Made by a program: the position numbers and the translations under genes. Shown here piece after piece: positions 8,842 to 13,713 of a DNA stretch of 21,963 nucleotides. Each line of letters begins with the position of its first letter. The stretch's first letter is position 1. This stretch comes from an uncultured Clostridia bacterium. GTDB taxonomy: Bacteria > Bacillota > Clostridia > Lachnospirales > Lachnospiraceae. The DNA lies in NCBI GenBank assembly GCA_946614685.1, contig CAMOHF010000001.1, positions 1 through 21,963 on the forward strand. Direction: 5' to 3'. The notes below the pieces were generated by a model, which was given only the letters and a program-made list of their open reading frames with translations, was not told the DNA's origin and searched no databases.

Positions 8842-10074
8842 TTAGGGTCTGGGATTGCCACATCCCTCGCAAAACGCACCCGTATTGGTGGTTCCGCATG
8901 CACAGGTCCATGTGCCGCCGGCCGCCTGATTCGTCGCACCCATCTGCTGATTCGGCATCTGATTCATACCCATCTGGTTCTGCATACCCATGTTGTTCAT
9001 CTGGTTCATGCCCATCTGGTTCTGCATACCCATGTTGTTCATCTGGTTCATGCCCATCTGGTTCTGCATGCCCATATTGTTCATCTGGTTCATACCCATC
9101 TGATTCTGCATGCCCATATTGTTCATCTGGTTTTGCATACCCATGTTGTTCATCTGGTTTTGCATACCCATGTTGTTCATGCCGCCCATCTGGTTCTGCA
9201 TGCCCATATTGCCCATTTGGTTCATGCCCATCTGATTCTGCATGCCCATGTTGTTCATGCCGCCCATCTGGTTCATGCCCATATTGTTCATCTGGTTCGG
9301 CATACCCATGTTACCCATCTGGTTCATACCGCCCATCTGATTTTGCATGCCGCTCTGGTTGCCCATCATCATGTTGACGGCAGTTGCCACGGCCGCACCC
9401 ACAGCGTTTCCGGGATTCATACCCATACCGCCGTTCATACCCATGCCGTTCATGCCCATACCGCCGCTCACGGAAATATTGCTGCGTCCGGTCAAGGCCG
9501 TCTCCATCTGCATAGCCACCTGCTGAAGTCTGACATATCTCGCATCCTGCATGGAAGTCGGTCTGTCGGAGGAGCTGCACAGATCCATGCGGATCTCGTC
9601 AAAGTAAGGATTGTCCACCGAGATAATGAAATCAAAATCATAATGATACTCATAGCGGGGCGGGTTGTAACTCTTTCTGCCTTCCGGAGTCTCGCGCATC
9701 AGCTCATGCTTGTTCTCCTTGACATCAAGATTGCAGTTCAAAACAGAGGAAAGCGGAATCACATCGGGATTGCTGTCTCTCCAGTTGGTGTTCCTGCTTA
9801 CCACAAATGCGCCCATGTTCTGGTCAATGTAGAGTTTGTAGTAATCGCCGAATGTTGCTGTCGGATGAAAAGCGGACACCTGTTGCTTGTTCGCTTCGCG
9901 GTAAGCAAGCTGCTCCTTGATCTCATCGATCGTGCTGTGCTTTCTCTCTGAAAAGAAGGGAGAGAGCTTTGACGCACAGTCCTTACACATATTGCCGTCT
10001 TCTAATTTGCGGTTGCCGAGCATGCCGATCTTCTCACCGCAGATATCACAGAATTTCTTCTCAAATAAACCCAT
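8842..10074 (-). CDS. DUF4428-type zinc-finger protein with long Met/Asn/Gln repeat domain and C-terminal zinc ribbon
   Basis: A 410-residue protein of unknown function. The N-terminus has a CxxC...CxxC finger (C9, C12, C30, C33) like DUF4428. A compact middle region (about 70-195) with alternating beta-like stretches (FVVSRNTNWRD, YHYDFDFIISVDNPYFDE) recalls bacterial PH-like domains. Residues 206-377 are an extreme low-complexity tract of Met, Gly, Asn and Gln, including four perfect 14-residue units. The C-terminus is a short zinc ribbon (C391, C393, C402, C405) of the same TWTCxCG type found in the SPFH protein encoded just upstream. AGGAGGT precedes the ATG. The protein is predicted cytoplasmic, with no membrane segment. 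The shared ribbon type and operon position suggest it is a partner of the SPFH protein. Confidence 0.85.
   Translation of the reverse strand: MGLFEKKFCDICGEKIGMLGNRKLEDGNMCKDCASKLSPFFSERKHSTIDEIKEQLAYREANKQQVSAFHPTATFGDYYKLYIDQNMGAFVVSRNTNWRDSNPDVIPLSSVLNCNLDVKENKHELMRETPEGRKSYNPPRYEYHYDFDFIISVDNPYFDEIRMDLCSSSDRPTSMQDARYVRLQQVAMQMETALTGRSNISVSGGMGMNGMGMNGGMGMNPGNAVGAAVATAVNMMMGNQSGMQNQMGGMNQMGNMGMPNQMNNMGMNQMGGMNNMGMQNQMGMNQMGNMGMQNQMGGMNNMGMQNQMNNMGMQNQMNNMGMQNQMGMNQMNNMGMQNQMGMNQMNNMGMQNQMGMNQMNNMGMQNQMGMNQMPNQQMGATNQAAGGTWTCACGTTNTGAFCEGCGNPRP
8944..9459 (-). repeat. In-frame tandem repeat array, 42-base units
   Basis: The coding tract for residues 206-377 is built of short repeats. Its most regular part (8956-9123) is four consecutive 42-base units encoding NNMGMQNQMGMNQM, with synonymous changes such as ATG-GGC versus ATG-GGT between copies. 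Further left-over and shortened units extend to about 9459. Unit lengths are multiples of three, so copy-number change would keep the frame. Confidence 0.93.
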
Positions 10075-10139: not shown

Positions 10140-11486
10140 TTACGCCTTGATGTCTTTGTCGTCAAAAGGGTCGCCGCACTGAGGACAGAATTTCGGCGGG
10201 TTCGCCGGATCCTCGGGCTCCCAGCCGCACTTGTCGCACTTGTAAAGAAGCGCACCTGCCGGCTTCGGGCTTCCGCAATTTGAGCAGAACTTGCCCTTAT
10301 TCACCGATCCGCAGGAGCAGGTCCAGCCGTCTGCTGCCGCAGGTGCCGGCTTCGGGCTTCCGCACTGAGGACAGAAGTTTCCGGTTGCGGTAGCTCCGCA
10401 GGAACAGGTCCAGCTACCGGCTGCAGGTGCCGCAGGTGCTGCCTGTGCGGGTGCTGCCTGGGCCGCCTGGGCCGCCTGCTGCTGTCCCATAGCAAAGAGG
10501 TTCTGTGCATTGACACCGCCTGCTGCCTGTGCCATGCCCATACCCATGAAGCCCATCATAGCGCCGTTGGGATTGCCGGCTGCCGCCTTCATAGCGTCTG
10601 CCTGTGCACCTACGAGTGTAGCGCCTGCCATGGAAGGATCCTTGAGCATGGCGGTTCTCTGTGCCTGCTTGATCAGATCCTCGTCTTCCTTCGGAAGCGT
10701 GATGGGATTTAATGCGATAGATTTTACCTTGAGACCGCGAAGCTCGCCCCACTTTGCGGAAAGAACTTCATTGATGGCATTCTCAAGTTCGGTCGTATGT
10801 GTCTGAATCTGGTTCGGACGAAGTTCGAGTTCGGAAAGTTTTCCGAGTGCGGGCGCAAGTGCGCTGATAAACTCGGTCTTAAGCTGTCCCTCGATCTCGC
10901 TTCGAAGGTATTCCTGCTCTACATTACCGCATACATTTTTATAGAAGAGAAGCGGGTCGGAAATAACGAATGAATACACGCCGGAGCATCGAACGGATAC
11001 GTCGATATCAAGTCCGATCTTGGAATCTACCACACGGAAGGGTACCGGACTGGGTGTGCCGAATTTGTTATCGATCAACTCTTTTGTATTGAAATAGTAT
11101 ACTCTCTGATCCTTACCTGTATCACCGCCGTAAGCGAAACGCTTGCCGATGGTCTTGAAGGTGTTTAAGATCCCCTGGCCGAGACCGCCGGTGAAGATAC
11201 TGGGCTCGGATGATGTGTCGTAAGTATACTCGCCGGGAACCGCACACAGATCCACGATCTGTCCCTGCTCCACGATGATCATACACTGTCCGTCCGCCAC
11301 CGCGATGCCGGAACCGTTGGAAATGATATTGTCATTTCCTTTTGTGTTGGAAGAACGTCCGGATACACGCTTCATACCCTTGGTCACCATCACGTCCTTC
11401 TCCATAGCTTCACAATAAAAGAACTCAAGCCACTGATCCGCTAAAGTCCCCCCTGCTGCACCGAGTGCTGCTTTGATCAAACCCAT
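10140..11486 (-). CDS. SPFH-domain protein with three C-terminal zinc ribbons (YdjI-like)
   Basis: First gene of the cluster, 448 residues. The SPFH/band-7-type domain covers about residues 55-265 (VADGQCMIIVEQGQIVD, VPGEYTYDT, PFRVVDSKIGLDIDVSVRCSGVY cut here to its key part, then LSELELRPNQIQTH). A Met/Ala/Gln-rich low-complexity hinge follows (about 305-356; MMGFMGMGMAQAAGG). Three zinc ribbons end the protein: C361/C363/C372/C375, C390/C392/C401/C404 and C417/C420/C434/C437. No transmembrane helix is obvious, so membrane contact would need partners, plausibly the tail-anchored and TPM proteins encoded downstream. Homologues are sometimes labelled virion core protein; there is no phage context here. 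GGAGG lies nine bases before the ATG. In B. subtilis the related YdjI links PspA to the membrane; no pspA occurs in this window. Confidence 0.9.
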   Translation of the reverse strand: MGLIKAALGAAGGTLADQWLEFFYCEAMEKDVMVTKGMKRVSGRSSNTKGNDNIISNGSGIAVADGQCMIIVEQGQIVDLCAVPGEYTYDTSSEPSIFTGGLGQGILNTFKTIGKRFAYGGDTGKDQRVYYFNTKELIDNKFGTPSPVPFRVVDSKIGLDIDVSVRCSGVYSFVISDPLLFYKNVCGNVEQEYLRSEIEGQLKTEFISALAPALGKLSELELRPNQIQTHTTELENAINEVLSAKWGELRGLKVKSIALNPITLPKEDEDLIKQAQRTAMLKDPSMAGATLVGAQADAMKAAAGNPNGAMMGFMGMGMAQAAGGVNAQNLFAMGQQQAAQAAQAAPAQAAPAAPAAGSWTCSCGATATGNFCPQCGSPKPAPAAADGWTCSCGSVNKGKFCSNCGSPKPAGALLYKCDKCGWEPEDPANPPKFCPQCGDPFDDKDIKA

Positions 11487-11657: not shown

Positions 11658-11699
11658 TTGCGTGATTCATTTCGTTTGATTGTTGAAGGAGGAGAAAAC

Positions 11700-12656
11700 A
11701 TGAAAAAGAAATTGATTGCACTTTCAATGATGACCGCCATGGCACTTTCAATGGCTGCCTGCGGTAAGGATGGGGATTCCGACACAACTACAGCGGCAGC
11801 AACCACCACAGAAGCTGCTTCCACAGAGGCTGCAACCACAGAGGCTGCTTCCGGTGCCGAGGCTGAGCTTGAGATGCTGCACGGCGTATACAAGATCAAG
11901 TATGACTCAGCTGCATATCGTCCCGCAACAGACGATGATATGCTCGGCGACCTGATCCCGCTTGACGAGACCAAGTACCCCAAACTCTATGTTACCTATC
12001 TGATGGGCGAGGATCGCCTGAAGGAAGAGATGGATGCGATCGACAAGGCTGCAGCAGCAGACAAGGAAGAAGTCACCATCGACGGACACAAGGCGTACAT
12101 CTATAAGGAAGCAGATGACTTGCTCGGACACCTCTACGCTTGTGTGATTCCCTTCGATAAGACGATCAAGTCCGCAGACGGTTACTACAATCAGGTGGAT
12201 GCCATCTACATCTACGGTTACGGCGATACCGAAGACATGATCTACAACGATGTCGTATTAAACATCATGAAGAGCATCGATATCGACGAGTCTCTCGAGG
12301 ACGCTGCGGAAGCGGCAGTTACCGAGGAGCAGGCCAAGAATGAAGCAGCAGGTGCCGAGAAGGGCTACGGAAAGTCCAACGCAGAGGCAACCGGACACTG
12401 CACTCTCGAGGTTCTTCAGGAGACCTACAAGTGGCAGAAGGAAGCCGGCTTCGATATGACCTACGAGGAGTTCAAGGAGCATTTCGGATGTGACGGTGCC
12501 CCCTGGTATGACGGCGCATTCGATGACGAGCGTCACGCATACAAGTGGGAGACCGAGGACGGCTCCGACTTCCTCTATGTAACCTTCGCAGTGAATGCGG
12601 ACGGCTCCGAGACTTACAAGAGCTGCACGTACTCCACAGCCGTAAAGGGCGAGTAA
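11700..12656 (+). CDS. Secreted lipoprotein of unknown function
   Basis: A 318-residue predicted lipoprotein. The signal peptide (MKKKLIALSMMTAMALSMAAC) ends in a lipobox with C21 as the lipidated residue. A Thr/Glu/Ala-rich linker covers about 27-52. A mixed alpha/beta region follows (about 58-205; MLHGVYKIKYDSAAYRP, DGHKAYIYKEADDLLGHLYACVIPF). After an Ala/Glu-rich bridge comes a compact C-terminal segment (about 235-315) with YKWQKEAGFDMTYEEFKEHF and several aromatic residues. I recognise no named domain. ATG at 11700 is chosen over an upstream in-frame ATG (11658) because it has GGAGGAG in front and begins the signal peptide. It is transcribed away from the SPFH operon as a single gene with its own terminator, and is anchored to the outer face of the membrane. 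Confidence 0.87.
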   Translation: MKKKLIALSMMTAMALSMAACGKDGDSDTTTAAATTTEAASTEAATTEAASGAEAELEMLHGVYKIKYDSAAYRPATDDDMLGDLIPLDETKYPKLYVTYLMGEDRLKEEMDAIDKAAAADKEEVTIDGHKAYIYKEADDLLGHLYACVIPFDKTIKSADGYYNQVDAIYIYGYGDTEDMIYNDVVLNIMKSIDIDESLEDAAEAAVTEEQAKNEAAGAEKGYGKSNAEATGHCTLEVLQETYKWQKEAGFDMTYEEFKEHFGCDGAPWYDGAFDDERHAYKWETEDGSDFLYVTFAVNADGSETYKSCTYSTAVKGE

Positions 12657-12680
12657 AACACGCTGGCAGACGCCAGGCCG

Positions 12681-12725
12681 AAAAACACAAGACATGCAGC
12701 GAGACTTTCGTTGCATGTCTTTTTC
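12681..12725 (+). terminator. Terminator of the lipoprotein gene
   Basis: AGACATGCA (12690-12698) pairs with TGCATGTCT (12712-12720). The stem extends inward by about four more pairs and is followed by a run of five T (12720-12724). It starts about 30 bases after the lipoprotein stop codon. An A run (12681-12685) on the other side makes it usable from the opposite strand too. Confidence 0.85.
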
Positions 12726-12935
12726 ATTGACGCCAACGCTTGCAAGCCACCCCTCAGGACCCACTCTCGTTAAGCATGGGCGCCCCTAGCCTCACTAAGC
12801 TCTCGGGCATAAATGCCCGAATCGCTAAGTGAAGAGGCCCATGGTTGACCTTCGGGGTGGCTTCAAGCTTATGGCTGGTCTTCGCGAGAGACAGCCGGCA
12901 AGACGCAGGTCTGACGTAGGGTCAACCACGGGTCT

Positions 12936-12978
12936 CGGTACTTAAAAAGCAGCCAATCGGCTGCTTTTTTTAGTACCG
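12936..12978. terminator. Long hairpin with A/T flanked core, probable bidirectional terminator
   Basis: CGGTACT/AGTACCG form the base, A5/T5 the middle and GCAGCC/GGCTGC the top, with loop AATC (12955-12958). On the plus strand GGCTGC is followed by seven T (12965-12971). On the minus strand the mirror image has five T. It is the first terminator-like hairpin after the response regulator gene and so may end the signalling operon. It also sits in the centre of the structured region. Confidence 0.7.
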
Positions 12979-13023
12979 CTAGGGGTACCCGTGATTAGCG
13001 AGAGCGGGTCCCGAGTCAGGCCT

Positions 13024-13088
13024 GGCGTCTGCCGGCGTCACTCTGGCGTCACCCTGACGTCTCCTTGGCGTCAACCCGGCGTCAGTCT
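13024..13088. repeat. Six phased GGCGTC-type hexamers, 10-11 base period
   Basis: GGCGTC occurs at 13024, 13034, 13045, 13067 and 13078, and GACGTC at 13056. The spacing is 10, 11, 11, 11 and 11 bases, with variable pyrimidine-rich fill. The period is close to one DNA turn, so the hexamers face the same side of the helix. The array ends at the response regulator stop codon (TAG, 13089-13087). Two GACGCC copies lie inverted at 12669 and 12729. It could be a protein-binding array or a decayed tandem repeat. Confidence 0.85.
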
Positions 13089-13713
13089 AGAAGCCCGGTA
13101 CGATGAGTTTTTGCTCGACGGCGTCAATCGCCAGCTGATACTTGGAGTTGTACCCCGCCTTGGTCAACATATTCTTGATGTGGAACTTGACGGTATTCTC
13201 GGAAATGCCAAGCTCCTCCGCAATATCTCTGTTGAGGCGTCCCTCGCACAGAAGTCTTAGGACTTCAACCTCTGTCTTCGTGAACTCGATGCTCTTGGCG
13301 CATCCGATCTCGACAGTCGGCGTGGCATCCGGGTAGATGCTTTCCCCTTCCATCGTGCGGTCCATCAGCTCGAGCAGGCCGAGTTCTCCGTGCTCCTTGT
13401 ACCAGAAGCTTTCGCATCCGGCTTCCCGCGCCTTTTCAATGAATGTCATCTCCGGAAGCGAGGTTACGATGATGATCTTGATATTCGGATGCTGCTTTTT
13501 GATCTCACCCGCAGCCGCAATTCCGTTCTCACGGTTCTCCGTGTACACATCCATCAGGATCAGATCCACAGGATTCTTCTGCGTATAGAGCACTGCTGCC
13601 TTTGCGGAAGACAGCTGCTCCACAATTTTGTATTTTTTCTCCGCCGTGGCGATCACCGTCTCAAACAGCGACTGCACGATGACGGAATCATCAACGATCA
13701 AAACCTTTATCAT
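13087..13713 (-). CDS. NarL/LuxR-family response regulator
   Basis: A 208-residue two-component regulator. The receiver domain (about 1-120) has the acidic pair D8/D9, phospho-acceptor D55 in LILMDVYT, T84 and K106. The LuxR-type helix-turn-helix covers about 143-198: FTKTEVEVLRLLCEGRLNRD, then IAEELGISENTVKFHIKNML. It is the third gene of an operon whose reading frames overlap by ATGA (13710-13713), so it is translationally coupled to the histidine kinase. Its target promoters are not known. The divergent cellobiose phosphorylase gene at the far end of the operon and the phased hexamers directly beside its stop codon are places to look. Domain assignment is firm. Confidence 0.95.
   Translation of the reverse strand: MIKVLIVDDSVIVQSLFETVIATAEKKYKIVEQLSSAKAAVLYTQKNPVDLILMDVYTENRENGIAAAGEIKKQHPNIKIIIVTSLPEMTFIEKAREAGCESFWYKEHGELGLLELMDRTMEGESIYPDATPTVEIGCAKSIEFTKTEVEVLRLLCEGRLNRDIAEELGISENTVKFHIKNMLTKAGYNSKYQLAIDAVEQKLIVPGF

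Follow-up and report, generated by a model that had tools for sequence, protein, structure and literature searches.

A Self-Complementary Interval between Convergent Genes

The window analyzed here, a stretch of DNA of 21,963 nucleotides, contains a gene-free interval flanked by the 3′ ends of two convergent genes, with ORFs at 11658-12656 (+) and 13087-13713 (−). The names lipoprotein and response regulator for these genes come from the original prediction, and the translations agree with both. The plus strand of 12657-13040 was predicted to fold at −231 kcal/mol, compared with −134.27 on average for shuffled sequences (z −15.65), with none of 100 shuffles equal to it, and the minus strand gave a z of −15.85, with 0 of 100 shuffles folding equally well. 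On direct reading, 12757-12773/12995-13011 forms 15 of 17 possible Watson-Crick pairs; 12738-12753 is paired with 12854-12868 with one bulge (inverted repeat I5); and the outer arms 12660-12679/13019-13038 and 12727-12736/13065-13074 are 95% and 100% complementary, respectively. The inverted repeats of the interval are genuine and far above chance expectation, and the self-complementary gap that had been predicted is present with every one of its named pairings in place. Elsewhere in the window, the adjacent predicted proteins at 8842-10074 (−) and 10140-11486 (−) have similar zinc-ribbon-like C-terminal motifs, and the first of them contains a long M-, G-, N-, and Q-rich repeat, both as read from translation only.

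The interval almost certainly consists of two inverted neighboring copies, A (minus strand) and B (plus strand), of one dispersed element family. In the core of the element, ∼90 nt in length, three parts meet at a junction: a short stem, a second stem that is long and has a U-U mismatch at its center, and a small hairpin with a GNRA loop. This core caps an outer stem of ∼25 to 30 bp whose sequence varies between copies with the pairing kept. A covariance model of the core, R1, was built from alignment A3, which comprises 51 of 62 extracted rows (omitting L128, a misfit, and ten rows near kept ones) and includes no window sequence, although two of its rows come from the same assembly as the window, on different contigs. 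When the window (22 kb) was searched with R1 at E ≤ 10, exactly two matches were obtained, A and B on opposite strands, with the E-values to be taken as rough. The features of the interval are listed here.

12738-12870 (−): element A, whole hairpin, consisting of the core, outer stem 12744-12758/12849-12863, and flanking pairs (from I5, the fold, and sequence reading; outer limits approximate)
12754-12855 (−): RNA-like core of element A (R1, 26.9 bits, E 3.9e-5)
12763-12770 (−): small hairpin of element A, AC-GAGA-GU, with the GNRA loop at 12765-12768 (sequence and family loop census)
12757-12773 (no strand assigned): start motif of A, pairing with that of B (12995-13011; 15/17 Watson-Crick)
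12894-13036 (+): element B, whole hairpin, consisting of the core and outer stem 12894-12915/13015-13036 (from inverted repeat I3, 22 nt, 73% complementary, and the fold; outer limits approximate)
12915-13014 (+): RNA-like core of element B (R1, 29.0 bits, E 1.1e-5)
12998-13005 (+): small hairpin of element B, GC-GAGA-GC, with the GNRA loop at 13000-13003 (sequence)
12944-12975 (+): apical hairpin of element B, carrying A and T tracts and resembling a terminator by eye (I9, 11 nt, 100% complementary)
12689-12721 (+): intrinsic-terminator-like hairpin just past the lipoprotein gene, outside A and B (terminator scan, 15 pairs, T-rich tail; I4)
13036-13090 (+): tandem 11-bp GC-rich repeats adjoining element B (direct repeat D1, spacing 11, 11, 11)

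The start of A is GGACCCACTCTCGTTAA and that of B is GGACCCGCTCTCGCTAA, and these two starts pair mutually to give the 17-position helix. This helix had been regarded as enclosing the branches of one large RNA; its pairing is real, but its topology is different, since it joins the starts of two inverted copies. Likewise, what was previously read as a pseudoknot, the crossing pairing 12738-12753/12854-12868, is copy A's own outer stem. Because the pairings are alternatives of two neighboring hairpins, no pseudoknot is required, and what had been described as a single large RNA is replaced by two copies, ∼130 to 145 nt each, of one hairpin element. Single copies are found elsewhere, for example at loci L026, L027, and L029, and the A-B pair is therefore not a unit. 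The terminator scan did not include the 12944-12975 hairpin of element B in its list, and a promoter scan of 12500-13200 found no promoter-like site.

Distribution of the Element Family

Compared with its own assembly, the interval matched once in full and seven times in part, in both orientations, and one of these matches fell inside the interval itself. Among 60 relatives, an orthologous interval was detected only in genome G027 (93% identity), together with many partial matches there, and A and B are both common to that genome. The G027 orthologue has 61 extra bases, with GACGCC-type repeats, between window positions 12677 and 12680, immediately interior to the outermost arm; the two genomes therefore differ in the outer frame of the region. 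A pattern for the element start matched 50 times in G027 vs. 22 times for a reversed control, and 24 vs. 11 times in the incomplete G000. A second, commoner subtype, searched with an 83-nt query, has matches in at least 23 of 37 genomes of the genus, and A and B, at 27 to 29 bits, score far below most copies of this subtype 2. Tandem repeats with a period of about 10 to 21 bp adjoin further copies of the same subtype as B in G027 and G000, as seen by eye in the flanks of L031, L035, L089, and L090. At L097, on contig C13 of G000, the left and right flanks each resemble a different G027 locus (L090 and L082), reflecting either recombination between copies or misassembly through the repeat.

An order-wide search with R1 at E ≤ 1e-5 under stricter filters identified the element in at least 30 of 295 sampled genomes and at least 13 of 129 genera. 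Among the matches listed, all 30 genomes belong to family f1, which we infer to be the Lachnospiraceae; 18 further listed f1 genomes gave no match. At E ≤ 0.001, copy numbers were at least 19 in G000, 43 in G027, 46 in G034, 18 in G010, 39 in G315, and 77 in G177, these and the order-wide counts being lower bounds obtained from scoring part of the candidates. R1 gave no match at E ≤ 1 in six other loci (57 kb). The relatives of the response regulator gene in RUG655 and RGIG4992 lie in other gene orders, and R1 found no match in those loci, nor did an exact core pattern match any viral contig searched.

RNA-Level Signatures of the Core

The core is very probably selected as RNA. In A3, 92.8% of the cells of the model structure are standard pairs and two-sided changes are present at 19 of 26 pairs. 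None of 500 shuffles reached four of the five covariation measures, the covariation score included, and the fifth, further pair types, was reached by 19 of 500; slid structures left 23 to 43% of cells paired. RNAalifold applied to A3 recovered the basal stem, the long second stem, and the GNRA hairpin, and did not predict helix 2, the weakest of the model, with 76.5% of cells paired. The 56 matches from other genera (51 distinct) have two-sided changes at 23 of 26 pairs, with 0 of 500 shuffles reaching any measure, in an alignment that was fitted to the R1 model and is thus biased toward it. Compensatory changes in homologs, proposed in the original prediction as the sign of an RNA, are present both in A3 and in other genera.

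The loop of the small hairpin is GNRA in all 51 A3 rows, represented by GAGA (20), GCAA (16), GAAA (11), GTAA (2), GCGA (1), and GGAA (1), and it is GAGA in both A and B. In alignment A4, 52 of 56 rows (52 of the 54 ungapped) are GNRA, the others being two gaps, AGGA, and GATA. A census of 76 rows, several of them misparsed, contained two true exceptions by eye, L203 and L092, neither of which is in A3.

G-U and A-C juxtapositions were counted on the sense strand of the outer arms of 61 of the 62 copies using equal mismatch penalties, giving G-U 54 vs. A-C 17 (P = 1.3e-5). The corresponding numbers for the core are 62 vs. 25, or 33 vs. 8 (P = 1.1e-4) after removal of two pairs, of which one has U-G in 29 rows and the other is doubtful; both P values are optimistic, as the rows are related. 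A broader set of 83 rows, kept from 94 candidates by requiring at least 18 Watson-Crick arm pairs and with some copies entered twice under two anchors, gave 123 vs. 72 in the same direction. An excess of G-U on one strand speaks for RNA because processes acting on DNA only should be symmetrical.

Variable Outer Arms and Mobility

Among copies in G010 and in the G008/G020/G025 group, the core is near-identical, whereas the outer stem of ∼25 to 30 bp differs with its pairing kept. At one orthologous site in two species (L117/L215), where the flanks are identical at 257 of 287 and 285 of 296 positions, the arms have ∼8 and ∼9 differing positions by eye, and both versions pair. The arms are identical at other orthologous copies, such as L213/L218 and L214/L219. 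The outer arm as an inverted target duplication or a preexisting palindrome was considered and found no support as a general rule, since the L117/L215 arms changed together in place; the direct repeats at G034 units, described below, also disfavor it.

We consider it highly likely that the element is mobile as DNA. In the G034 species group it is a miniature inverted-repeat transposable element (MITE). The MITE features are found in that group and not at A and B of the window, where neither terminal nor direct repeats like those of G034 are visible by eye. In G034 and its relatives, the core lies in a unit with 16-bp terminal repeats and ends TARNCAATTGCGAAAC. An end pattern of this type matched 99 times vs. 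12 for the reversed pattern, and the spacing of end-pairs, among the matches listed, is 36 to 271 bp. From these end-pairs, 20 units of 36 to 271 bp, several of them core-less, were chosen by eye. Direct repeats of 10 to 12 bp lie within one base of the ends in 9 of the 20 units vs. 8 of 380 mispaired flanks, under a rule fixed after inspection of the data. In a strict 11-bp register, direct repeats are present in 5 of 20 units vs. 5 of 380 mispaired flanks, and three of them are perfect. The core-less units are 36 to 124 bp in length; those at L190, L197, L201, and L205 (36 to 51 bp) are barely more than both terminal repeats.

One operon junction was compared in 11 genomes, of which seven were matched and four had no match at E ≤ 1e-20. 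In G029 and G022 the junction is empty, the stop codon being directly followed by the next ribosome-binding site. It is filled in G034 by a unit with a perfect 11-bp repeat and in G011 and G001 by units with cores in opposite orientations. G015 has a remnant there that lacks the core and is bounded by ends of this kind. The junction in G036 (L315) holds a hairpin of unlike sequence, CCGTCAT...ATGACGG, as if the site attracted hairpin elements. Of two other loci considered, L099 has a flanking gene from a paralogous family, so its flanks are uninformative on an empty site, and at L196 synteny breaks on the left.

Outside this group, 8 of 12 loci in G315, from another genus, share ends like GGGGCTGTAAAAAATC by eye, and one locus in G324 has ends like those of G034. 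Copies at L122, L125, and L230 lie inside the apex of a second family hairpin. Across these loci and L189, L196, and L199, copies either are nested at another copy's apex or have a hairpin added to the apical loop; the apex of element B in the window also holds another hairpin. Such arrangements suggest repeated insertion at hairpin tips. A search for a transposase with these ends, which covered Y1_Tnp (PF01797), found none in any of six genomes, and the same search was positive in 5 of 14 known genomes used as a control.

The original prediction had set an RNA gene, marked by compensatory changes, against a mobile element, marked by many copies with target-site duplications in one genome. The outcome falls on both sides: Compensatory changes are present, one species group has numerous copies flanked by target-site duplications, and the MITE-like palindromic element that had been offered as one option is borne out in that group.

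A Probable Mobile Hairpin Element with an RNA-Selected Core

We interpret the interval as two inverted copies of a nonautonomous dispersed hairpin element, MITE-like and with a core selected as RNA, and assign this overall reading a probability of roughly 0.7. Copies would spread as DNA through the transposase of another element acting on the outer arms. Those beside genes would be transcribed from neighboring promoters and then fold, and the fold would be kept because the folded transcript is recognized, the likeliest candidates for this being host double-strand RNases and RNA-binding proteins. Recognition might limit harm to neighboring genes or aid persistence of the element. The pair in the window, lying between convergent genes, would form a long hairpin in read-through transcripts from either side. 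This particular role, a recognized transcript that limits harm or aids persistence, is offered tentatively, as less likely than not. Another possibility, also less likely than not, is that of a mobile structured RNA, in which the core is the functional conserved part of the transposable unit, needed for spread or for tolerance by the host. Lineages would then exchange the DNA ends, and a single RNA would be carried by several transposition systems across the family.

Were the element a pure DNA-level palindromic repeat of the MITE or REP kind, with stems kept by hairpin-templated correction and no RNA function, the direct and terminal repeats of G034 and the existence of core-less 36- to 124-bp units would be accommodated, and templated correction would also yield the joint in-place change of the arms at the orthologous site. 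We judge this unlikely, because it leaves unexplained a GNRA loop in 51 of 51 rows whose positions 2 and 3 vary just as GNRA permits, the one-strand excess of G-U relative to A-C (54 vs. 17 in the arms; 33 vs. 8 in the core), and a conserved center with unlike ends across genera.

Covariation and the GNRA loop would also be expected of a multicopy small RNA gene or cis-acting leader RNA, duplicated around the genome and not itself mobile, and many G034-type units are located by eye just upstream of a Shine-Dalgarno sequence. When gene starts beside 76 copies were tallied with a crude ORF plus Shine-Dalgarno rule, they were on the sense side only for 30 copies and the antisense side only for 17, but on both sides for 11 and on neither for 18. 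The leader reading was set aside, as this orientation bias toward gene starts is weak. A nonmobile RNA of either sort is improbable in view of the opposite orientations in G011 and G001 at one operon junction, the direct and terminal repeats of G034, the position of the window pair between convergent genes, and a 12500-13200 region with no promoter-like site. A single ornate RNA of ∼400 nt with interlocking helices, possibly HEARO-like, would account for the pairings and the extreme fold energy, but it is very hard to sustain when halves of this kind occur singly elsewhere (L026, L027, L029), when R1 fits the two halves separately on opposite strands, and when no Rfam match is found.

Returning to the mobile hairpin with an RNA-selected core, its interest lies in an unusual combination of mobile-repeat behavior with an RNA-like conserved center. 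The usual view of MITE-like palindromes in bacteria is that of DNA parasites whose ends are conserved, whereas here the conserved part is a central RNA fold with one-strand signatures of selection. If confirmed, the element would offer a case in which selection at the RNA level on mobile DNA can be tested. It would also supply a new RNA family for the annotation of gut and rumen genomes and would commonly add structure to transcripts near many genes.

Comparison with Known Systems

Searching the window with the 4,227 families of Rfam 15 at the curated gathering score produced no match. The best hit of a relaxed search had an E-value of 0.025 and 23.5 bits against a cut-off of 90, and that of a further relaxed search had an E-value of 2.6. 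HEARO, ROOL, GOLLD, OLE, and raiA, suggested earlier as candidates, were not found at threshold in the window, insofar as they are among these 4,227 families. A structured element outside Rfam, as had been envisaged, is present, and so is RNA-like selection. Nothing was found at the element in 14 related loci, where the sole Rfam match, away from the element, is a TwoAYGGAY RNA at 2387-2548 (−) of L074 (85.2 bits). In the titles and abstract beginnings of open-licence literature we found no description of the element, the nearest titles concerning stem-loop families in bacterial genomes (PMC2267715), enterobacterial small mobile sequences (PMC2759123), and a repeated element in Bordetella (PMC3110155). 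The repeat, scattered in tens of copies per genome, is apparently hitherto undescribed.

Structured RNAs tied to mobile DNA include the HEARO/IscB omega RNA, the TnpB guide RNA, and the IS110 bridge RNA. The present element resembles these in being a mobile unit that carries a structured RNA, and it differs from them in having no Rfam match in the window and 14 loci and no internal ORF; to our knowledge, direct repeats such as those in G034 are not a mark of those systems. REP elements, which are associated with RAYT (Y1) proteins, are likewise hairpin repeats scattered between genes, but they are much shorter than the present element, and Y1_Tnp was absent from all six genomes searched.

Among known elements, the closest in kind are bacterial MITEs and dispersed palindromes, represented by ERIC/IRU, NEMIS, RUP, and BOX. 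Like these families, the element is short, noncoding, intergenic, present in many copies, and hairpin forming, with terminal inverted repeats and direct repeats in G034. It is unlike them in that its ends and arms vary, whereas its center is conserved across genera and has the one-strand signatures of an RNA.
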